Virus record (IMG/VR): IMGVR_UViG_3300041403_001141
Span: 1 to 24,626 of that record
DNA: 24,626 nt
DNA from: a virus
Direction: 5' to 3' (one strand)
Positions within the stretch are counted from its first letter, which is position 1. Each line of letters opens with the position of its first letter. This document shows, piece after piece, positions 3,994 to 19,959 of the stretch. The position numbers were made by a program, and so were the translations under genes. Under the pieces are notes generated by a model. It saw nothing but the letters and a program-made list of their open reading frames with translations, did not search any database and had not been told where the DNA came from.

Positions 3994-4968
3994 TCACCAT
4001 TCGAAGATGTGAAGTCGGACAACGTCGCCGACGTTCAGGGTCTGGCCTCCGCCAAGTTGTGTAGCGCAGTTGTTGTACGAAGGCTGCGATCCGCCGATGT
4101 AGAAGTACGGAACCGTGTAAGTGGATCCAACGATCTCTTGGAAGTATGCGTATCGCCGGAAGTACAACTGTGCTTCTGTTGAGGTAGGGAATTCCGCTTG
4201 GTTGGGATCTCCAAATGCGCCAGCGGTTGCACCGTAGTTGACCGCTTCCGTACCACAAACGATTCTTGGGCTGCCCGTACGCCAGAAACCTTGCGGGAAA
4301 CTATTGCCACTCGCCACAATGTTCTTGGCAGCGTAGTTGTTCGTAATCGTGGCAGACCAAGTGCCCGTCGCAGGCTTTGCGGTGATCTCCCAGTCCTGCT
4401 CTTGAACCTTGGTCCACCCGTCAAAGTCTCGCCAGTTCGCAGCATTGCCGTCGTATTCGGTCAACCCTACTTTGACGATGCTCTTGGTTGCCCCAGCAAG
4501 TCCCTCATTCGGTCCATCAATGGAATAGATCACGTTGTATGTGATCGAAGCGGTGTCTCGTGTGTAGAGCGGATCCTCTCTTTGGAGGACAATCCAGCCG
4601 CGAGCAGTGTTGTTCCCTCCGAACTGCCGAAGGTCAGGGAACTCCTGCCAAACAGCGATGAATGGCGGGTAGTCGGCCTCGACTGCCGCAGGCGATGGGT
4701 TGTAGTTGGTGTCCATCGACTCGTCCCGGCTGAGAGTCGCCAAAGGATACTGAGACGAGTAGGTGACCACACGGCTGCGGATCCACTGAGTCGGATCCCA
4801 GGTGACGCTGCCAGACTGAGCCACGATGATCTGCTGGTCTACGTTCTGTGGGAACGTGGTCGGCTCAGGGGCCCGCCCGGTATTGAAGCCCATGTCAAAG
4901 TAGATGCCGTCTGCAAACGTGTCCCAGTCGGATCCACCGGCTGATTGGACCACGCTCACGAAGGTCAT
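3994..4968 (-). CDS. Hypothetical virion/fibre-associated protein
   Basis: 324 residues. The start overlaps the fibre-like gene's stop as ATGA, so translation is probably coupled. The composition is rich in aromatic residues, Thr, Asn and Gly (for example GWIVLQREDPLYTRDTASIT and YFRRYAYFQEIVGSTYTVPY), as expected of a beta-rich receptor-binding or baseplate domain. There is no signal peptide or membrane segment. I recognise no named family. Its place directly after a long fibre-like protein suggests a fibre tip, chaperone or second adhesin. Confidence 0.65.
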   Translation of the reverse strand: MTFVSVVQSAGGSDWDTFADGIYFDMGFNTGRAPEPTTFPQNVDQQIIVAQSGSVTWDPTQWIRSRVVTYSSQYPLATLSRDESMDTNYNPSPAAVEADYPPFIAVWQEFPDLRQFGGNNTARGWIVLQREDPLYTRDTASITYNVIYSIDGPNEGLAGATKSIVKVGLTEYDGNAANWRDFDGWTKVQEQDWEITAKPATGTWSATITNNYAAKNIVASGNSFPQGFWRTGSPRIVCGTEAVNYGATAGAFGDPNQAEFPTSTEAQLYFRRYAYFQEIVGSTYTVPYFYIGGSQPSYNNCATQLGGGQTLNVGDVVRLHIFEW

Positions 4969-6482
4969 TGCGTGTATTCCACCGAGATCTCAAGGTCTTC
5001 TGCACTACTGGTGCTGCTGATAGCGACCGTCAGTCGATCGCCAGCAGAAACAGATGCGTTGAAGATAGACGTGCTTGTCGCCTGGACACTGCTGACAGCA
5101 AGGATGGCCTGCGAGTTAGCACCATTGGCAAGCAGTAAGTTGCAGGTTCCAGCCGAGGTTTTTGCTGTGACTCTTGTCACCGTCCGAGCGGCAGGTGCAT
5201 ACGGTTCAACCGTGTAGGTCTTGTCGCTTGGGGTCTCAATGAACATCGCGTACGAGTCCGAGACCGCAGGCAAGTCGTTGTTGAACTCGGACAGGCCGAT
5301 CGAGTCCCGATCCACGAGCCGGTATTCGATCGATCCGCCGCCGGGCTGGTGCTTGTACAGAAGCGCGCCGTTGCCGGGGCTGCCGGTCGTTGTCGACACG
5401 TCCCCCAAGTCGTTCAGGTCGATCGCGTCTGCGTGCTGGGTGACGCTCGACTCGGAGATGCGAGCGTCGGCGAACGTGCCGCTGGTGATCTTGCTTGTCG
5501 ACAGGTCGGGGATTCGCAGGATCGAGAAAATGCCGCTGGTGATGTCGCCGGCGTCGTGGGTGTGGCTCGAGGCCGCAAAGTTTCCGCGTGTGCCATCTGC
5601 CAGCGCATACTGGGTATGGTCGTCGTCTCCAAGACCCGCCAGCGTTCCGTGGTCACTCGTTGCACCAAGATCGTTGTTGAACTCCGACAGGTTCACCGAC
5701 GACAAGTTGGTCAGTTGCGTGCCGTCGATCGACAGAGCAGACTCGTGCTGGGTCACGTTGGACTGGGCGATTCTTGCATTGTCGAATGTGCCAGACGCGA
5801 TGTCCGTCGCGCTCAGTGAGACGTTTCGCCACTCGATCCCGTTGTAGTACAGGATCTGCTTCGCTGTCGGGGTAGTGATGCTGACATCCGTCAGGTCGTC
5901 AAGCGCAACAACTGGCGGGGTTAGGGTGTCAATCAGCTCGTCGACAAGGATGTCAAGAACGAGAAACGAGCATCCCGCAGATGGAACATTCTCAAGCGTG
6001 ACGGAGGCCGCAGTCTGTGTGCTGACTTCGACTGTGTTGGTTGAGTCGTGTGTGCTGGCGATGACGACGTACTCGTTGTCGTCGACCGCCGTCGTGAACT
6101 CAAAGGTGAAACTTCCGCCACCGTTGTCGGTGTACGCCTCGACGTTCTTGGTCGAACTGAGGGCGGACCCGTCGAACTTTGCGAACGCAACGATGTGCGG
6201 CTGAATCTGCACGCCCTGAACGTACATCGTGTTCGCGTTGACAGCGCCGTCACACGTCAGCGTCCCGCAAGAGAGGTTCCCAGATACGTCCCCGTCGCCG
6301 TTGATGTCGAGCAGAACAGACTCAAGCTCTGAGGTCGACTCGATCTTGCCAAGAGCAGTGATTCCTCCGGTGCTGGTCGTAGACCCTGTGATCGAGGCGC
6401 CAGACTGCAGCCTGGCTTGATCAAGAATCTGGACCGTGCCGGTGGTGTTGGCCGCGATCGTATCGACCTTGAGGGTGCTCAC
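4965..6482 (-). CDS. Tail fibre-like protein (long form)
   Basis: 505 residues. The start overlaps the lipoprotein-like gene's stop as ATGA. The N-terminal module (MSTLKVDTIAANTTGTVQIL) is shared with the 227-aa protein at 2406-3089. The middle carries typical phage-fibre repeat language: DDHTQYALADGTRGNFAASS followed by HTHDAGDITSG. Two internal repeats recur, SGTF.(N/D)ARI..S.VTQH at about 230-246 and 334-350, and LSEFNNDL at about 265-272 and 397-404. This is consistent with a trimeric beta-helical or triple-beta-spiral shaft. Residues 59-66 (DINGDGDV) resemble the start of an EF-hand loop, but position 12 is not acidic. The likely role is host recognition. Confidence 0.8.
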   Translation of the reverse strand: MSTLKVDTIAANTTGTVQILDQARLQSGASITGSTTSTGGITALGKIESTSELESVLLDINGDGDVSGNLSCGTLTCDGAVNANTMYVQGVQIQPHIVAFAKFDGSALSSTKNVEAYTDNGGGSFTFEFTTAVDDNEYVVIASTHDSTNTVEVSTQTAASVTLENVPSAGCSFLVLDILVDELIDTLTPPVVALDDLTDVSITTPTAKQILYYNGIEWRNVSLSATDIASGTFDNARIAQSNVTQHESALSIDGTQLTNLSSVNLSEFNNDLGATSDHGTLAGLGDDDHTQYALADGTRGNFAASSHTHDAGDITSGIFSILRIPDLSTSKITSGTFADARISESSVTQHADAIDLNDLGDVSTTTGSPGNGALLYKHQPGGGSIEYRLVDRDSIGLSEFNNDLPAVSDSYAMFIETPSDKTYTVEPYAPAARTVTRVTAKTSAGTCNLLLANGANSQAILAVSSVQATSTSIFNASVSAGDRLTVAISSTSSAEDLEISVEYTQ

Positions 6483-11653: not shown

Positions 11654-12209
11654 GTCCGTTCTCCAGTAGGTATCGGCACAAGGCCGGGGGATTCCACGGT
11701 TCTTTCTCGAAGACTACGCCCACTCGAGCAAGGAACACAAGAGCCACGTCTACGCAGGTCTCAACCCGAAGGGGCCTCCATCTACCGCCTGTACAGAACA
11801 TCGCTAGATGTGATACAAGAGCCTGAGTTGTTGTCGTCTCCTGCACGCAGGCTGATCCTGCAGTCCAGTCGGAAGCCCAAGACCAAGGAATGGGGTTGGC
11901 CGCGAATTCAAAGCAGCCGACGACACCCTTGTAGCCTCTGGCAAATGCCCGCACTGGGTAGATCGTGGTGTGTGTCCACCCGACGTCAAGCACGGTCCCG
12001 CCATGCTCAAGCAAGATGTGTCGGCAGCGAGTGTCAAACCAACGGCCGACCAGCTCTGTCCCGCCAACCTGCGTGAGCCACTCTGGATGTTTCCGCCACC
12101 AGCCTGGTTTCAGGCGTGAGGTGACATGCGACAAACGCACACCCTCAGCGAACCAGACACGAAGTGTTCCATTGTCTGGAACGCTGGCATCAGGAGAAGA
12201 AGTACTCAC
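11595..12209 (-). CDS. Hypothetical protein, possible papain-like (NlpC/P60-type) fold
   Basis: 204 residues from a GTG at 12209 with AAGGA nine bases upstream. An ATG at 12242 would add 11 residues but has no ribosome site and overlaps the RNA polymerase end more. A histidine in RCRHILLEH (about residue 64) precedes a cysteine in ETCVDVALVFL (about 152). This His-then-Cys order is what permuted papain-like proteins of phages show. The C-terminal PPALCRYLLENG fits the helix often seen after it. This is my inference from motif order, and catalysis is unproven. It lies between RNA polymerase and the virion genes. Confidence 0.55.
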   Translation of the reverse strand: MSTSSPDASVPDNGTLRVWFAEGVRLSHVTSRLKPGWWRKHPEWLTQVGGTELVGRWFDTRCRHILLEHGGTVLDVGWTHTTIYPVRAFARGYKGVVGCFEFAANPIPWSWASDWTAGSACVQETTTTQALVSHLAMFCTGGRWRPLRVETCVDVALVFLARVGVVFEKEPWNPPALCRYLLENGHVWHPRLSALPAEDCRRAD

Positions 12210-14595
12210 TGTTGCGGATCCTTTCGAGGTCAAGGTTCCCATACTTAGGAGGCAATGGGATGTCGGCCGCCGGGTAGATGTCAGCCCACCTGGTGCAGAT
12301 CCTTGAGATCTGGTCGGCGCCGTGCATTTGGATCATCGTCTCTGCCAGCACCTGCTTCAATTCATCCGCGTGTTCCGCATGCGTCCACGCTGAATCATGC
12401 ACGCCGGCAAACGCCCGCTGGCGTCGCCGCATCTCAATCGCAGTCATGCCGAGGTGTGCCCCATCCCAAGAGTGAACGATGTTCGGCGGCAAGCCTTGCT
12501 TCTGCTTGGCCTTGTAGACCGGGCAGTCTTCGGTGATCTCTAGAAGGTTGACCTCCTGCAATGCTGTCCGAACCTTGCCAGTCCTTCCTTTGCGGTACGG
12601 CTGCACTGCCGTGAACCCCAGCGGTGTGGGCCACTCAATCGCACGGTTTGGGTATGTCTCGTTGATTGCTTTGGCGGACGCCTCGATCCAACGCATCACC
12701 TGCTGCGGCCCGCTGAAGACATGATCAATGGCAGACCGAACATTCGCTGCCACATATGGCGCCACCAGCCTCGCATCGTCCTTTGCCACTCCTCGTGATC
12801 GGAGTTCGTCGCGGATCTGGTTGCGCATACCGACAAAGGTCACGTTGTAGTTCGAGGTCATCACTGGCTGCTTGACAAGCTTGCGGTCAAGGTGCGGCAT
12901 TGCAAGCCTTGCCACTTCTTGTGTGTCCGCGGCCACGTTCTCAAGCACAGCGCGAAGAACTCTGGAGTAGGCGTCCATCGGCTCTGCGGTTGGGAGCAGG
13001 TTCACCCATTTCCCACCATCCTCGTCGCGGCTGGCCGCACAGTAGTGCTGCATGCCGTTGCAAGTTCCATCGAGCTGGACCGGCAAGCGTTCCCCGTACT
13101 CGTCATCGCACAAGGCGAAGCACGCCGCCAGGAACTGCCACGGCTCATCCGCCTTGCTCCACAGATCGATGGTCCGAATCGGGTCCTCATAGATCCGTCG
13201 AATGTCTGACCGCATCTCAATGATTCTGGCGTCCCGCGCATCAAGGCTCATCTTGTCCAAGCCCCAGCAGTTCGCCGCATGGATGCGAAGCCACCGCCGG
13301 CCAGCCTCGGTCAGCGGAACCGGCTCGGCAAACAGCATGAGCGACCGAGGGACGTCGTGGCCGTGGTGGTTGAGATGCAACGGGATCGGGTAGAACCTCC
13401 CGCGGAAGTCGATCTGGTGCGGTAGATACCACTGCCCAAATCCCCGCATTCGCTCGGCCACGCCAATCGTCTGCACGAACTCGGCTCTCCAGCCGGCGTT
13501 CTTCGAGTTCACAGTGTGGACCGCATGGGCCTCGGACTTCCACGCCTTGAGCACCTCTTCCGATTCGTCAATGCCATCAGGCCTAGGTGGCAGCGGCACC
13601 TTGTCGGCCGGAGGGATCTTGCCAACGCCCCCACCCATCTCAGACCAAACGACCTGCATCACCTCGGCGACTCGGTCATTCACGGTCCACGCCGTCGCAT
13701 TCATCGCGTTCATGGCCTCAAGCAGGCGGCCATGGTCCGACTCTCGAACCTTGCGGGTTTGCTCCTTTGTTGGCTTCGCGATCAGAGGCGTGCGAACCTT
13801 GACGTACCCACCCTCGGCCTTGTCACTCCACGGGTAAGGCTCGACCACCATGGGCAGAAACCTCGGTCGCAACTCAGACCGAAACGCATGCCCGTCTTCG
13901 ATGACCTGATGGGCGGCGTCGGTCAGTTGAATGGCGCCGACTTTCTGATTGTTATGCCAGATCTTGACATGCTGGAAAGCCCGCTCCCACTTCCTGTCGA
14001 CCTCGAGCAGGCACGTCTCGATTGCAAGCCTCGCCATGCAGGAGCCTGTAGCAATGCAGCCTCGGCGATTCCAAACCGGCTCTTCGAGGACCTGCTTCGC
14101 GAACTGGTTCAGGCGGCGAGGCGTCATCCTCCGGTAGCGATTGGCGATGCGGTTCCAGTCGCATTCATCATGTCGCTGCAGTTGCTCGGCGTGGATCTCC
14201 GACACTACCGCATTGCCGATTGCGTAGAACCCACGCACAACCAGGTCCCCGTTCGGTTCCAGCAAGCATCGACCCAGCATGCTGTGCAATGTGATCACCG
14301 CAAGCTTGTCTGCCTTGAGCGACATGACGATCGGGCCGTGAAGACGGCGGCCTCTCGCCGATTGTCCCGCAAGGATCTGCCGCTGCTCCTCTCGGATTGC
14401 CTGCCGCAACGGCTCAAACCAGTAGACCAACAGCCGCTCGACCGGCTTGAGGCTGGCGGCGTCGCCACGCTCGGTCGCTTCACGAACCAGTTTTCGGTAT
14501 CGCTTCACGCCAGCGGAGATCGCGTCGATCTCAAGTTCTACTTGCCGACCAAGGTGTGAGCCGGCGACGATGTCGCCAATTTCAAGGGGTGCCAC
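12190..14595 (-). CDS. T7-type single-subunit DNA-dependent RNA polymerase
   Basis: 801 residues from a GTG at 14595 with GGAG seven bases upstream. The frame is open for 19 more codons, but they overlap the nuclease gene. Key parts are present in order: DFRGRFYPIP (about 396-405); palm motif LDGTCNGMQH with catalytic Asp at about 509; KQPVMTSNYN with Lys at about 575 and the nucleotide-selecting Tyr at about 583; GLPPNIVHSWDGAHL at about 701-715; and HDSAWTH with the second catalytic Asp at about 734. The C-terminus ends in FFS, the hydrophobic 'foot'. T7 polymerase has 883 residues, so the N-terminal domain is shorter or diverged. It would transcribe the late genes. Its own promoters cannot be identified by eye here. 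Confidence 0.95.
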   Translation of the reverse strand: MAPLEIGDIVAGSHLGRQVELEIDAISAGVKRYRKLVREATERGDAASLKPVERLLVYWFEPLRQAIREEQRQILAGQSARGRRLHGPIVMSLKADKLAVITLHSMLGRCLLEPNGDLVVRGFYAIGNAVVSEIHAEQLQRHDECDWNRIANRYRRMTPRRLNQFAKQVLEEPVWNRRGCIATGSCMARLAIETCLLEVDRKWERAFQHVKIWHNNQKVGAIQLTDAAHQVIEDGHAFRSELRPRFLPMVVEPYPWSDKAEGGYVKVRTPLIAKPTKEQTRKVRESDHGRLLEAMNAMNATAWTVNDRVAEVMQVVWSEMGGGVGKIPPADKVPLPPRPDGIDESEEVLKAWKSEAHAVHTVNSKNAGWRAEFVQTIGVAERMRGFGQWYLPHQIDFRGRFYPIPLHLNHHGHDVPRSLMLFAEPVPLTEAGRRWLRIHAANCWGLDKMSLDARDARIIEMRSDIRRIYEDPIRTIDLWSKADEPWQFLAACFALCDDEYGERLPVQLDGTCNGMQHYCAASRDEDGGKWVNLLPTAEPMDAYSRVLRAVLENVAADTQEVARLAMPHLDRKLVKQPVMTSNYNVTFVGMRNQIRDELRSRGVAKDDARLVAPYVAANVRSAIDHVFSGPQQVMRWIEASAKAINETYPNRAIEWPTPLGFTAVQPYRKGRTGKVRTALQEVNLLEITEDCPVYKAKQKQGLPPNIVHSWDGAHLGMTAIEMRRRQRAFAGVHDSAWTHAEHADELKQVLAETMIQMHGADQISRICTRWADIYPAADIPLPPKYGNLDLERIRNSEYFFS

Positions 14596-14953
14596 GCACA
14601 ATCTCCGTAGTGACGAATCGTGTCCCCTTCTTCTTGACGACGTGCAAGTCAAGCCTTGCGTACTTCACCCAGAGTTTCTTGTCCCGTTTGAACTTGGCCG
14701 TCTCGACACCCTTGACGTCTATGTAATACGGCCACTCGTCCCGATGAAACGGAATAATCAGGAAGTCTGGGATGTAGACATTCTCAGGCACGCCCAGCCA
14801 GATTCGAGGCTGACAGACGTACGAGTTGATCTCGCCCATCCCCACCTCAAGTTCAAGTTGCTGGCAATACTCCCGCTCGGCCTTGCTCCCAAAGGTGCGG
14901 CCAAGATACTGCCGCTCATTGGCGGGAGCTACTCGGTACTTCGTTCTTCCCAT
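14582..14953 (-). CDS. DUF1064-like PD-(D/E)XK nuclease
   Basis: 123 residues. The start overlaps the zinc-ribbon gene by 25 bases. It fits the phage DUF1064 pattern: a 'F.SK.E..Y...L' start (FGSKAEREY, Glu27), QPRIWL near residue 48, IPDFLI with Asp63, and YYIDVKGV with Asp79 and Lys81, then basic residues (KFKRDKKLW). These give a complete PD-(D/E)XK-like active site. Members are thought to be small nucleases acting in phage recombination or replication. It may supply nuclease activity to go with the RecT-like protein, though the two are 3 kb apart. Confidence 0.8.
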   Translation of the reverse strand: MGRTKYRVAPANERQYLGRTFGSKAEREYCQQLELEVGMGEINSYVCQPRIWLGVPENVYIPDFLIIPFHRDEWPYYIDVKGVETAKFKRDKKLWVKYARLDLHVVKKKGTRFVTTEIVRGTP

Positions 14954-15516: not shown

Positions 15517-16338
15517 TCAATCCGTGCAGGTGCATGGCACCGAGTCGTCGTCGATGTTGGGGTCTTCAAATAGCCGACCCTGAACGCTGACCTGAGTGAG
15601 AAGCTGTCGATAGGTCGGCCGATCTAGCCTGAACGGCTTGCCAGTCCGCTCCTCGATCGCGGCCCACCACTCGAGGAGTTCTGGGTAGTCATCGGCTATG
15701 ACCTGCAGTCGGGCCGCAGATTTCAGGAAACAGCCACAGCAGTTGCCAAGCCATCGCGGGATCCCCAGACGCCATGACTGTGCCTCCCAGAAAGCCTCGA
15801 CCTCGACGAGTGAATCGCCAGCAAGATACATGGGGCAGACCGGAGTCTCTGCGGCATGATCACCACGGATTCGCTGTGCTCGCCGAGGTTCATCTGCTCG
15901 CAGACCAATCGCTGAATCCCACTCGTCCCACCCGATCGACTTGAGGTAGTGGTAGCCAGTTCGCATCTTCAGGTTGGAGGTGCAGACCCTGGCCACTGGT
16001 GTCGGCAGATACCCTTTCGCTTGCACCAACCGCTCGAACGGCTCGCCGTTTCTTGACGCGGCCTCAAAGTTGACGACCTCGAACTCCTGAGGCGCGACAT
16101 ATTCGAGCCACACGACCGGGATTGCCCACTCGTCCGACACCCGCTGCACGAACTTCAAGGTCTCCTCATGCTCGAGACCTGTGTTGCAGAACAACACGCG
16201 GGCGTCCTCTGGAAGTTTGCCGTCAAATGCGTCGACGATCTTTCGCAGCATGAACGCCGATGTCTCTCCGCCGGAGAACATGACTGCGAAAGGCGGCTTG
16301 ACCCGGTAGTGATTGCGACTTGTGTCATGCGTCGTCAT
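15517..16338 (-). CDS. PP-loop ATPase / PAPS-reductase-like enzyme
   Basis: 273 residues. I start it at the ATG at 16338, which has GGGAG seven bases upstream. The PP-loop SGGETS is at residues 22-27 and CNTGLEHEET at 51-60, typical of the PAPS reductase/adenine nucleotide alpha-hydrolase group. Cysteines at 119 (VCTSNLKMR), 168 (TPVCPMY), 200, 201 and 203 (NCCGC) could hold an iron-sulfur cluster, as in some tRNA- and DNA-modifying relatives. Phage copies are widespread, but their substrate is usually unknown. It directly follows a DNA methyltransferase and overlaps its end by 14 bases, so a role in nucleic-acid modification is a fair guess. Sulfur assimilation is an alternative. Confidence 0.8.
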   Translation of the reverse strand: MTTHDTSRNHYRVKPPFAVMFSGGETSAFMLRKIVDAFDGKLPEDARVLFCNTGLEHEETLKFVQRVSDEWAIPVVWLEYVAPQEFEVVNFEAASRNGEPFERLVQAKGYLPTPVARVCTSNLKMRTGYHYLKSIGWDEWDSAIGLRADEPRRAQRIRGDHAAETPVCPMYLAGDSLVEVEAFWEAQSWRLGIPRWLGNCCGCFLKSAARLQVIADDYPELLEWWAAIEERTGKPFRLDRPTYRQLLTQVSVQGRLFEDPNIDDDSVPCTCTD

Positions 16339-17671
16339 CGTGCAACTCCCACCAGAGTGATGCAAACGCAATGGCCGCCACGTCAGGAACGACCGCGTTC
16401 CCCAAGCACCTCAGCCGATCGACTCGGTCTGCGTGAGCATCGACCAGCCCGTCGGAAATCCCATCAGCTCCTCGACCCACGATGGGTTCAAGAGTCCGAG
16501 GGGACTCCCATCCGGCTTGTGGTTCGCCCGGCCCTGCCGGCCATCGGCGAACACGGCTCGAGGAAGAAGATCCACTCTCCCATTGGGGCCGCGACCCTCC
16601 CGCTCGAAAGACATCCCTGGCGAATCCTTCCAGTCCCTCGATGTCGCTGTCGGCCAATCCTTCTTGCGACTCTTCTTCCCCTTCTCGCGATCCGGGGTTC
16701 CCACCAGATCGGGATGGTTCGAGAGTCCCACGTTCCCGTAGTTCGGAGAGCACGGAATCTTCCCGCCCTCCGCTGCCGTCGGCGTCGGCCACTCCCTCAC
16801 CGCAGAAGTCAGATCGCTTCCACCGCTCGAGGTTCTCCCCAATTCCTGCTTCCTCGTTGCGGACTCCGGCCCCCCGCTCGGCGTCCTCGGCGTCGGCCAG
16901 TCCCTCCGAACCGCAACCCCGAGACTCTTTCCCGGCTTGCCCTTCGCTCTCCCTTCCTCGTAGTCCCTCACCCGCTGCTCGTAGTTCTCCACCGGCTCGT
17001 CGTGATTTCCCCGATCCGCATGGATCCCAGTCGGCGTCGGCCAGATCCTCACCGCATCCACCAATGTGGTCCCAGAGTGCGACACCCCCGTCGTCGTGGT
17101 GTGCCTCGCCGAACTCCGCGAGTCGCCGACCGTCGCTGTCGGCCACTGCAAGAATGAACCAACGCTTCCTTCGGTGTGGTGCGCCGACTTCGCTCGCTGT
17201 AAAGCATGCCGCCGTCGCTCTGTAACCCAGTCTTTCCAAGTCGCTGAGGACATGGTGGAGAACGGAGTGGTAGCCCGGCGACCGAGCGGTAGCGATTCCA
17301 TCGACGTTCTCGAAGAAACAGATTCGAGGTCGAACAACGCTGAGTCCTTCTCGGATGACAGGCCACAAGTGACGCGGGTCCTCAACGCCTTTGCGACTTC
17401 CGGCGTTTGAGAATGGCTGACACGGGAATCCTCCAGTGACGATGTCCACGCGAGATGCGTAGTCAGACCACGGGAATGAGTGAAGGTCCGGGTAGATAGG
17501 CGCCGGATCCAGCTCTCCCGCTTCCATCTTTTCAGCCAGGTTCGCGATGCAGAAGGCTTCCCTCTCCACCATAGCGATCGTGCGAATTCCTCTGACGCAA
17601 GCGCGGAGTCCGAGATCGATTCCCCCGATTCCTGCGCAAAGGGAAAGATGATGAACATGCGATTCCTCCAT
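16325..17671 (-). CDS. DNA (cytosine-5) methyltransferase
   Basis: 448 residues. The start shares one base with the previous stop (TGATG). It transfers methyl from SAM to C5 of cytosine. Motif I is LSLCAGIGGIDLGL (9-22), motif IV is GGFPCQPFSNAG with catalytic Cys84, motif VI is FFENVDG (119-125), motif VIII is HRRKRWFIL (166-174) and motif X is LGNAVVPDVA (423-432). Residues 176-400, the target-recognition region, are unusual. They are Gly/Glu/Arg-rich and low-complexity, with five VADSD/LADAD-like repeats (176, 210, 258, 294, 339). In the same stretch another minus frame is also open and looks more protein-like (see next entry). It may protect phage DNA or modify the host. Confidence 0.88.
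   Translation of the reverse strand: MEESHVHHLSLCAGIGGIDLGLRACVRGIRTIAMVEREAFCIANLAEKMEAGELDPAPIYPDLHSFPWSDYASRVDIVTGGFPCQPFSNAGSRKGVEDPRHLWPVIREGLSVVRPRICFFENVDGIATARSPGYHSVLHHVLSDLERLGYRATAACFTASEVGAPHRRKRWFILAVADSDGRRLAEFGEAHHDDGGVALWDHIGGCGEDLADADWDPCGSGKSRRAGGELRAAGEGLRGRESEGQAGKESRGCGSEGLADAEDAERGAGVRNEEAGIGENLERWKRSDFCGEGVADADGSGGREDSVLSELRERGTLEPSRSGGNPGSREGEEESQEGLADSDIEGLEGFARDVFRAGGSRPQWESGSSSSSRVRRWPAGPGEPQAGWESPRTLEPIVGRGADGISDGLVDAHADRVDRLRCLGNAVVPDVAAIAFASLWWELHDDDA
16411..17151 (-). CDS. Overlapping same-strand frame with WPTPT repeats (methyltransferase C-terminal-like)
   Basis: This frame is open from 17658 to 16411. I mark only the part that looks like protein, from a possible TTG at 17151. 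It reads WPTAT, WPTPT, WPTPR, WPTPT, WPTAT at roughly even spacing. These are the frame-shifted readings of the VADSD/LADAD repeats. It also contains GKPGKSLGVAVR and ends LNPSWVEELMGFPTGWSM. I recognise that ending from many phage cytosine-methyltransferase C-termini ('LNP.WVEWLMG.P.GWT'). In a stretch of about 110 codons that I counted, roughly three quarters end in G or C. In the 448-residue frame the third positions there are about half G/C. It could be an internal gene, a frameshift product or a fossil of an earlier frame. No convincing start site is visible. Confidence 0.4.
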   Translation of the reverse strand: MQWPTATVGDSRSSARHTTTTGVSHSGTTLVDAVRIWPTPTGIHADRGNHDEPVENYEQRVRDYEEGRAKGKPGKSLGVAVRRDWPTPRTPSGGPESATRKQELGRTSSGGSDLTSAVREWPTPTAAEGGKIPCSPNYGNVGLSNHPDLVGTPDREKGKKSRKKDWPTATSRDWKDSPGMSFEREGRGPNGRVDLLPRAVFADGRQGRANHKPDGSPLGLLNPSWVEELMGFPTGWSMLTQTESIG

Positions 17672-17850
17672 CAGAACCCCCGCTTGTTGGGGTCTTCTTT
17701 CTCGGTCTTCGTTGGCAACGGAGGCGGGGGGTTGCGACGCATGAAGTCCTCGACGGCGCCGGGGCCGAGCGCCTCAGCCGCACCGAGTTCCTCCATCCAG
17801 CAGCAGTAGTCGCTCCGCATGAGTTGATCCTTCGCTGGGTCGTAGCTCAC
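17671..17850 (-). CDS. Small hypothetical protein, GTG start
   Basis: 59 residues from a GTG at 17850 that overlaps the RecT-like stop as GTGA, with GAGGAG about eight bases upstream. It reads MSYDPAKDQLMRSDYCCWME and then ends in a proline- and lysine-rich tail (RRNPPPPLPTKTEKEDPNKR). It is tightly coupled to both neighbours. I recognise no family. A later ATG (17820) is possible but has no such coupling. Confidence 0.6.
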   Translation of the reverse strand: MSYDPAKDQLMRSDYCCWMEELGAAEALGPGAVEDFMRRNPPPPLPTKTEKEDPNKRGF

Positions 17851-18827
17851 CAGGAATGCTCCTCGTTGCTGCGATCTTCGACAAACGCGGCCTTGACCGA
17901 CTCGATGTCTTGGAACACTTTGTTGCCGATCTTCTTCGGGAGCCATTTCAAATGGACTTCGGCGTCGGCAGCCGCAGCATCCTTGCACTGCGTTGCGATC
18001 GTCTTGCTGAAAGTCTCGAATGTTTGACCATCGGTTGAGTGAACGAGGTACTTGGTCTTCGTGCCCCGCTTCACAGGCTCAACATCCATCACCTGAATCT
18101 TCGAGTACTGCTCGTCCTGCTCGGACTCGCCGGCGTTCATCGTCTGATCAGCGGGAAGATTCTTCTTCTCAGGCAACGCCTTCGGCGCCGGTCTCGCGGG
18201 CGGCTCCGGCTCGGGCTCAGGCCAAACCACAGGCGCGGGGGCATTGCTGCCCCCACGCCCGCGGGACGAAAGAGATTCAACCTGGCCCCGAACCGGCTCA
18301 TCGGGGATCTCAGACTCGCCGTGCTCCTGAACGTACACGGGAGCGGCCGAGGCACCGAGAGCGTCGGGACAATGCTCACGATAGCCGTTCGAGATGCACC
18401 GTGCAAACAACATGCTCTTCGGGTACTTCCTCCAATTGTCCCCGCCAAGCCCGGCCCGCTTGGCGTCCTCGATCGTGAAGACCGAGGTGCCGATCTTGAA
18501 CGGAACGCCGTTCTCGTCCCGCATGCTCAGGTCGTAGAAAGTGATGCGGCACTCCGTCTCGGTGGTGACCGCGCGGTAGTCGTACTTCCCGCTCCGCTTG
18601 ATCGCGGCGGCCATCGTGTTGGCGGCGAGCACCGCCTTCCCCTTGATGAGGTGGAGTCCGTTCATCGAGTCGTAAGGGGTAAGGCCGAGGCCGTGCCCGA
18701 CGACCAACTTCGCAGCACACTGAGCGGCGTCGCGTGCGTCGGGGAACATCCCGGACTTCGCGAACACGTCAGCGATTCGGAAGAGGTCGAGGTCGGCGCC
18801 GGTGGGCGAAGTGATTGCGTTGTTCAT
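17847..18827 (-). CDS. RecT-like single-strand annealing protein
   Basis: 326 residues from the ATG at 18827, which overlaps the preceding stop as ATGA. The open frame extends far upstream but is a shadow of the integrase there. The recognisable core is residues 35-160: AAKLVVGHGLGLTPYDSMNG, LIKGKAVLAANTMAAAIKRS, GKYDYRAV, then NWRKYPKSMLFARCISNGYR and CPDAL. These are typical of RecT-family phage recombinases. A Pro/Glu-rich linker (about 195-225) leads to a C-terminal domain (about 245-318). RecT proteins anneal single strands and work with a 5' exonuclease. No RecE-type exonuclease is next to it. Confidence 0.82.
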   Translation of the reverse strand: MNNAITSPTGADLDLFRIADVFAKSGMFPDARDAAQCAAKLVVGHGLGLTPYDSMNGLHLIKGKAVLAANTMAAAIKRSGKYDYRAVTTETECRITFYDLSMRDENGVPFKIGTSVFTIEDAKRAGLGGDNWRKYPKSMLFARCISNGYREHCPDALGASAAPVYVQEHGESEIPDEPVRGQVESLSSRGRGGSNAPAPVVWPEPEPEPPARPAPKALPEKKNLPADQTMNAGESEQDEQYSKIQVMDVEPVKRGTKTKYLVHSTDGQTFETFSKTIATQCKDAAAADAEVHLKWLPKKIGNKVFQDIESVKAAFVEDRSNEEHSW

Positions 18828-18958
18828 GACTGCCTTTCGTGGTAACGGCGGGCGGTGTCGCCCTGCCCGAGAATTACAAGAGGGGTCCGCCGGTCCTCCG
18901 CCGACATGCGACGGAGTCCGAGGGCCAGACGAGAGAGGAACAGAATCAGGCGGTGCAT
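18824..18958 (-). CDS. Tiny ORF linking integrase and RecT-like genes
   Basis: 44 residues. GGAGG lies ten bases before the ATG at 18958. The start is inside the last codons of the integrase, and the stop overlaps the RecT ATG as ATGA. It reads MHRLILFLSRLALGLRRMSA, a short amphipathic/hydrophobic basic helix, then a polar tail. The coupling at both ends favours real translation, at least as a leader for the RecT-like gene. No family is recognised. Confidence 0.5.
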   Translation of the reverse strand: MHRLILFLSRLALGLRRMSAEDRRTPLVILGQGDTARRYHERQS

Positions 18959-19959
18959 CGGTAGTAGTCCTCCGACACGGTGAGGTAGTGATCTCGAGCA
19001 ACTTGCTCGGAATGACCGATCCAGGCACATGCAACGTGGGCCGGGAATTGCTGGTGCCACAGGGTGTCGCGAGTCTTCCGCAGGTCCTGCATCGTGAACG
19101 CCTCAACGCGGGTGCGACCGCAGGCGGCGGCGAGAATGCGATGAACCTGTCCCGCCTTTCCTGCCTCGAGCACACCGCACACCGTGAGGTGTCGAGGTGC
19201 CCACCGCTCGAGGCAGGAGGCGAGACCTGGCTCGACCCGGACGACCCGCAGCCGCTGCTTCGTGGTGCGGACGCCCGACCGAGGTTCAACCGTCAAACGT
19301 GCGTCGCTCAGGTGATCCCAGCGGAGGTGGACCGCTTCGCTGGTCCGCAGGCCGGCGTACCAACCGAGCATGATCAGCCGCTCGGCAAGAGGGCAGGCTG
19401 CAGCCACGGCGTTCGCCTCCCCGAGTGAGACCAGCCGACGGTTCCACTGCTCAATCCGGGGGGCCGTGCCGACCAGATGATCGAACGGGTTGGTTCCAGC
19501 CCGCTCCTCTGCAATCGCATGTCGAATGATCACCTTGGCAATTCGGCAATGCTTACAGACCGTTGATTCGCCGAGGCCGCGGTCGGCGGCGAGCCACGCC
19601 CGCCAGTCGGTCGCGAGGCCTCGAGGAATTTCGTCGATTCGCGGGTTGGCGGGGAAGAAGAGGCGGAGCAGATCCGCCGTCCGACGGTGGGCCTTCATGG
19701 TTGCGGGGTCGAGGGCGGTCGATCGCACCTCAAGGTAGCGGACGAGCCAGTCATGAAGGCAAGCTCGAGCGGAGTGCCGGAGTCCGGGCTGGATTCCGTG
19801 CTCGATGGCGATCCGTTGGACCTCCGCCTCCGCCTGCCGGCGGGTGAGATCACGCTTGCGTCCGATGGATCGGCGGCGGCGACGCCCGCTCCCGTCGGTC
19901 CACGAGGCTTGCCAGTACGCACCGTTGGAGTTCAGTCGGTAGGTGGGGGCAGGGGTCAT
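18946..19959 (-). CDS. Tyrosine-family site-specific integrase
   Basis: 337 residues. The start overlaps the previous stop as ATGA. Residues 1-60 form an arm-binding-like basic domain (GSGRRRRRSIGRKRDLTRRQ). Residues 65-165 are the core-binding domain. Residues 180-337 are catalytic, with Arg205 (YAGLRTSEAVHLRW), Lys234 (TTKQRLR), Arg294 (QDLRKTRDT), His316 (WIGHS) and nucleophile Tyr325 (ARDHYLTV). The first residue of the usual H..R box is Gln291 instead of His. It would integrate the phage into the host chromosome, making this a temperate element. No attP could be placed next to it. Confidence 0.9.
   Translation of the reverse strand: MTPAPTYRLNSNGAYWQASWTDGSGRRRRRSIGRKRDLTRRQAEAEVQRIAIEHGIQPGLRHSARACLHDWLVRYLEVRSTALDPATMKAHRRTADLLRLFFPANPRIDEIPRGLATDWRAWLAADRGLGESTVCKHCRIAKVIIRHAIAEERAGTNPFDHLVGTAPRIEQWNRRLVSLGEANAVAAACPLAERLIMLGWYAGLRTSEAVHLRWDHLSDARLTVEPRSGVRTTKQRLRVVRVEPGLASCLERWAPRHLTVCGVLEAGKAGQVHRILAAACGRTRVEAFTMQDLRKTRDTLWHQQFPAHVACAWIGHSEQVARDHYLTVSEDYYRCTA

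Follow-up and report, generated by a model that had tools for sequence, protein, structure and literature searches.

Two overlapping reading frames of a phage C5-methyltransferase gene very probably encode the catalytic and recognition chains of one enzyme

The window analysed here, the whole of a 24.6-kb IMG/VR record (positions 1 to 24,626), carries on its minus strand a methyltransferase gene in which, as the first-pass annotation had stated, two same-strand reading frames are present: B, of 448 aa, and A, the WPTPT frame, of 415 aa. Frame A lies in the +1 frame relative to frame B and is open for 1,248 bp, almost the whole of gene B; the openness of the second frame had been noticed correctly, but its length had been put at about 740 bp. 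The stop codon of A is located 86 bp before the end of B. The features of the gene are as follows, with motifs, modules and Shine-Dalgarno-like site read from the letters and the recognition region supported also by module conservation.

16325..17671, minus strand: frame B, 448 aa, putative alpha-like chain of a C5 cytosine methyltransferase with motifs I-VIII and X
16411..17658, minus strand: frame A, 415 aa, putative beta-like chain with WPTP recognition modules and motif IX
17669..17671, minus strand: start codon (ATG) of B, which shares bases with the stop of the ORF upstream (TGATG)
17665..17669, minus strand: GGAGG, Shine-Dalgarno-like, 6 nt ahead of the start codon of A
17656..17658, minus strand: ATG start of A (MFIIFP), corresponding to MWIIP / MWLYVP of relatives
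17621..17647, minus strand: B motif I, LSLCAGIGG
17411..17434, minus strand: B motif IV, GGFPCQPF (catalytic Cys)
17303..17317, minus strand: B motif VI, FFENV
17185..17247, minus strand: A residues 138-158, predicted helix, the only long confident element (block pLDDT 82-96)
17159..17185, minus strand: B motif VIII, GAPHRRKRW
16492..17148, minus strand: putative recognition region of A, five WPT[AP] modules
starts at 17145, 17043, 16899, 16791 and 16656, minus strand: the five WPT[AP] modules of A
16460..17113, minus strand: B residues 187-404, predicted disordered (pLDDT about 33-50 nearly throughout), overlying the A modules
16444..16491, minus strand: A motif IX, LNPSWVEELMGFPTGW, near-invariant in 59 relatives
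16385..16405, minus strand: B motif X, LGNAVVP

The five B repeats VADSD, LADAD, LADAE, VADAD and LADSD occupy the same bases as WPTA, WPTP, WPTP, WPTP and WPTA of frame A, so that the change of one repeat style into the other, described earlier for this gene, holds for all five. The C-terminal end of A, from 16491, reads LNPSWVEELMGFPTGWSM. The stronger third-position G/C bias ascribed to the WPTPT frame was likewise confirmed, with a GC3 in the recognition region of 0.766 for A vs 0.595 for B.

A PAPS-reductase-like gene (15517-16371, minus strand) lies directly downstream and overlaps the end of B by 47 nt; in phage C72C1 (L005) a PAPS reductase is likewise found just downstream of a dual methyltransferase gene. 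A second IMG/VR contig, IMGVR_UViG_3300040960_002895 (L009), contains a 100% identical copy of the methyltransferase gene. Since the window also encodes a T7-type RNA polymerase, a tyrosine integrase and a RecT-like protein (12190-14652, 18946-19959, 17847-19289, minus strand), along with a major capsid protein and a head-tail connector, the virus is probably a podovirus-like, temperate phage. Elsewhere, a 505-aa ORF (4965-6482, minus strand) has a bactofilin-like stretch near its N-terminus, with an E-value of 9e-5 that is below the curated cut-off.

The product of frame B matches PF00145 (E=1.2e-32, residues 9-179; 114 bits vs a curated cut-off of 22) and phrog_363 (E=7.5e-55), and contains motifs I, IV, VI, VIII and X of C5 cytosine DNA methyltransferases. 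A recognition domain and motif IX were looked for within this chain and were not found: motif IX is in A, and residues 187-404, which contain most of the VADSD/LADAD repeats, are predicted to be disordered. In the AF2 model, residues 1-180 and 416-445 are folded with confidence and almost all of 187-404 is disordered. A Foldseek search with this model matched M.HhaI and M.HaeIII over roughly half of the target, a partial coverage that we read as consistent with B providing the large domain only. The description of the 448-aa frame as a complete enzyme was consequently rejected on the missing motif IX, the missing recognition domain and the predicted disorder of its middle, and the idea built on it, that a recognition domain in two frames serves to diversify specificity, is therefore not the favoured reading of the locus.

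The product of frame A matches phrog_1008, annotated as 'DNA methyltransferase' (E=3.6e-16, residues 71-406). Among relatives, 59 of 59 A proteins match this family and 53 of 53 B proteins match phrog_363. Motif IX of A has the sequence LNPSWVEELMGFPTGWS, and a motif IX-X profile built from relatives that carry both motifs in one frame aligns with DRM2 (LEPDEVEMLLGFPKNHT...RYKSLGN) at E=0.0094, which is weak by E-value. With the exception of the helix at residues 138-158 and the motif IX segment, the AF2 model of A is poor (mean pLDDT 55) and could not serve as the query of a fold search; profile comparison of A with the PDB matched nothing and hence no solved relative, and searches of the A proteins against Pfam and NCBIfam returned no NCBIfam match and a single weak, unrelated Pfam hit in one member. 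Because motif IX and the recognition region together make up the small domain of M.HhaI and M.HaeIII (PMC3404938), A would be the counterpart of that domain. From their position, from the adjoining motif IX and from the split relatives described below, we infer that the WPTP modules read the DNA target. One of them, NHDEPVENYEQRVxDY...KGKPGxSLGVAxR (window 16888-17045), recurs in frame A of otherwise different genes (L013, L187, L015-L022, L024, L170 and L181), and frame B is closed over it in L022 and L024; this recurrence suggests module exchange.

Comparison of related loci showed which frame is conserved where. Over the three shared modules and motif IX, amino acid identity was 0.69, 0.64, 0.54 and 0.77 in frame A, as against 0.38, 0.31, 0.35 and 0.48 in frame B and 0.38, 0.33, 0.37 and 0.47 in the unused third frame; judged by these alignments, the recognition modules are conserved only in A, and B there does no better than background. 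In the catalytic part, related loci differ mainly at position 3 of the B codons, and in the recognition part mainly at position 3 of the A codons; there, A position 3 ranked first in two analyses, with position 2 above position 1 in one and the reverse order in the other. The N-terminal half of A, which lies over the catalytic part, is open, yet its similarity is barely above the third-frame background. Sequence conservation of this half had been suggested by a BLOSUM test, and was dropped after a cleaner test without stops showed almost no excess. Each chain therefore consists of one functional part and one part that needs only to be readable.

Whether both frames are kept open was judged against a null in which the synonymous codons of one frame are permuted and the stops in the other are counted. 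In the window alone (permuted on the identical L009 sequence; 62% GC), the probability that A is open given B was 0.15 for the catalytic part and 0.16 for the recognition part, whereas for B given A 6.9 stops were expected, none was seen and fewer than 1 in 500 shuffles were open. The window by itself is thus weak evidence for A given B and strong evidence for B given A, and the homologues are decisive. Across the recognition region of 48 diverse non-redundant loci, stops numbered 0 in A against 101 expected and 0 in B against 225 expected. Over the catalytic region of the 48 loci, A had 47 stops against 195 expected, and 32 loci were fully open where 1.3 would be expected. The viral loci had been found partly through A, which biases them toward openness of A; among loci retrieved by B alone, a set free of that bias, A was free of stops over the catalytic part in 51 of the 58 that could be parsed, and the third frame carried 1-45 stops in the recognition part.

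The position of motif X provided a further comparison. In the 71 loci where it lies in B, the recognition region contains 0 B stops, although 311 would be expected; as the third frame of these loci has 536 against 512 expected, the permutation null is calibrated. In the 7 loci where motif X has moved to A (L052, L065 and Mycobacterium phage Wile among them), 50 B stops were counted and 60 expected, so that B decays at a neutral rate. B is therefore open across the recognition region only to reach motif X, and this joint choice of frame constitutes a natural test of overprinting. Both frames are thus shown to be kept open by selection across very diverse phages, with far fewer stops in homologues than permutation expects. 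Of the options that the first-pass annotation had listed, true dual coding is borne out; stops scattered through the WPTPT frame of homologues, named there as the contrary outcome, were looked for, and the opposite was found.

The same two open frames occur in about 80 viral contigs, more than 60 loci of bacterial genomes, cultured phages and E. coli prophages, nearly always with A in the +1 frame of B. Searches by tblastn with A and with B match the same bases of phage C75C1, and in phages MW202733, RcKeef, RCIP0114 and C72C1 both frames are open, A at least in the recognition part. When viral contigs were scanned with the A motif, nearly all loci had B open through the motif, and GNAV followed in the B frame, mostly 65 nt (or 83-89 nt) downstream. 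Among 80 loci from bacterial genomes, which include records of Alphaproteobacteria, Paenibacillus, Clostridium, Oscillibacter, Pseudomonas, Rubrobacter and Planctomycetes, 61 of the 71 with a parsed B were of the dual type and the offset was +1 in 70 of 71. Homologues at 42-55% GC also keep A open. Cultured carriers include Acinetobacter phage ABMM1 and Salmonella phages S9-5 and SEN5, and the presence of the locus in such phages and in E. coli prophages makes it directly testable.

For the E. coli prophages RefSeq lists B only, whereas the record of Pseudomonas phage phPA-G has A, as a hypothetical protein, and lacks B. In Paenibacillus phage Lily, the cytosine methyltransferase gene is LILY_62, and LILY_63, nested in it, is labelled 'g62 internal gene'. 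The dual locus explains why two unrelated-looking 'DNA methyltransferase' families, phrog_363 and phrog_1008, are found at one locus. Where RefSeq annotates B without A, the gene would specify half an enzyme, which would fail when cloned in codon-optimised form or when assigned a specificity.

Two further layouts were identified. In split relatives (Wile gp75/gp74, L006; Vash gp32/gp33; L052; L065), the modules, motif IX and motif X are all on the A chain; B ends just after motif VIII, A is open across the junction and is the sole open frame in the recognition part. The actinobacteriophage 'two DNA methylase' pairs (Mycobacterium phage Wile, L006; Streptomyces phage Vash, L268) are a split form of the same enzyme. 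In the other layout (L170 and L181; also L015-L021), motifs IX and X are in B, and the NHDEP recognition module is still in A.

In the window, the ATG of A lies 13 bases after that of B. An A start (MW[IL]xxP, MSWLFSQ, MTWLYLPP or MAWCHVPG) was recognisable in 95 of the 114 loci whose A frame is open over the catalytic part. In 50 of the 95 the sequence is RTGTG, with the A start followed two bases on by the GTG of B, and in 27 it is RTGA-ATG or similar, with the B start followed by that of A four bases on. The two start codons are no more than 4 nt apart in 77 of the 95 loci, and a Shine-Dalgarno-like match of at least 3 bases lies upstream in 71. Initiation in both frames has been shown for AUGUG sites of E. 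coli (PMC9841429), and near-fused starts of this kind argue for separate initiation over frameshifting.

We consider it unlikely that a programmed frameshift joins motifs I-VIII of B to the recognition part of A in one chain, with the unshifted product as a by-product. The split relatives, in which B ends just after motif VIII and A is open across the junction, present a place where such a shift could join the two. However, a shift would not need A to be open over the catalytic region, yet that region is free of A stops in 51 of the 58 loci retrieved through B; a conserved start and N-terminal motif (MW[IL]xxP, MSWLFSQ, MTWLYLPP) belong to A itself, with start codons near-fused to those of B; and the dual type would need a second shift back to reach motif X. 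Start-codon and stop-codon evidence alike thus disfavours the frameshifting option of the first-pass annotation.

Less probable again, and to our minds quite improbable, is that B is a complete enzyme with the VADSD region as its recognition domain and that A has a separate role, e.g. as an inhibitor or anti-restriction protein. B does end with a proper motif X, and the predicted TRD of M.EcoHK31I has been assigned to the larger subunit (PMC3404938), but the middle of B is predicted to be disordered, is conserved no more than the third frame and is lost whenever motif X moves to A, and motif IX is in A. There is next to no chance that A is a codon-usage shadow of B at high GC that makes nothing: in the window alone A would be open by chance in about 15% of cases in each part, but A stays open in homologues at 42-55% GC, the third frame calibrates the null, and A is the only open recognition frame in the split relatives; the permutation tests, the B-retrieved loci, the motif X comparison and the module identities together refute it. 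The option of two compensating frameshifts that left the old frame readable is just as negligible, since a relic would fill with stops and the counts were 0 in B over 71 loci and very few in A, even if the frame of motifs IX and X does vary between relatives (IX in B in L170/L181, X in A in L052/L065).

Collectively, these data make it highly probable that the alpha and beta chains of a single C5-methyltransferase are encoded at this locus by two overlapping genes, an organisation like that of M.EcoHK31I but with a more complete overlap and a very wide distribution. B would give the alpha-like chain, with the catalytic core of motifs I-VIII, a disordered linker needing only openness and then motif X, which would complete the SAM-binding domain; A would give the beta-like chain, with a passenger N-terminal half needing only openness, followed by the WPTP modules for target recognition and motif IX. 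As the starts lie only a few nt apart, one transcript would give both chains, which would assemble in trans into the active enzyme. Both proteins are, on this sequence evidence, presumed to be made and to bind each other. The two frames would then supply different parts rather than the alternative C-termini of one enzyme envisaged earlier.

Whether the locus stands for a widespread and old class of phage and prophage methyltransferases, with a separate recognition subunit of exchangeable WPTP modules, a second frame over the whole catalytic gene and near-fused starts, we judge to be about evenly balanced. If so, the proportion of the two subunits would be fixed by a single mRNA, and swapping modules would alter specificity while leaving catalysis as it is. 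DNA genomes rarely contain long, conserved overlaps on the same strand; the present one exceeds 400 codons.

According to Lee, Kam and Shaw, in work of 1995, the smaller chain of EcoHK31I is reportedly encoded in another frame inside the larger-chain gene; the window is alike in this feature, with A (16411-17658) inside B (16325-17671) in the +1 frame. M.EcoHK31I (YGGCCR) has motifs I-VIII and X on the large chain and motif IX on the small chain (PMC3404938), the distribution also seen in the window. In contrast to M.EcoHK31I, A of the window extends over almost all of B, with start codons only a few nt apart, and has several WPTP modules, and phages and prophages from many groups of bacteria carry genes of this type. 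No EcoHK31I sequence was identified in the collections searched, where plasmid and E. coli searches returned other homologues; the likeness described here is one of layout.

M.AquI (CYCGRG) carries the distal recognition part, motif IX and motif X on its small chain (PMC3404938). The window resembles it in having the recognition part (in M.AquI at least its distal half) and motif IX on the second chain, and differs in having motif X on the first chain and chains that overlap almost fully. The M.AquI layout, with motifs I-VIII on one chain and IX and X on the other, is matched by L052, L065, L061, Wile gp75/74 and Vash gp32/33; motif X was located on the second chain in L006, L052, L061 and L065.

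LILY_63 of Paenibacillus phage Lily shares with A the LPTPT and MNPNYCELIMGFPIKW features and its nesting in a methyltransferase gene, but starts internally and is 163 aa long, and its deposited record gives no function or meaning. As at the AUGUG/GUGUG ambiguous starts of E. coli, overlapping start codons would open two frames here; the dual loci have long conserved second products, whereas that of pqiA in E. coli has 15 residues (PMC9841429). A literature search covering few subscription papers found no account of the arrangement in phages. Relative to these systems, the new elements are an overlap that is nearly complete, a recognition chain built of modules, start codons that are nearly fused, layouts that interconvert and a broad distribution.
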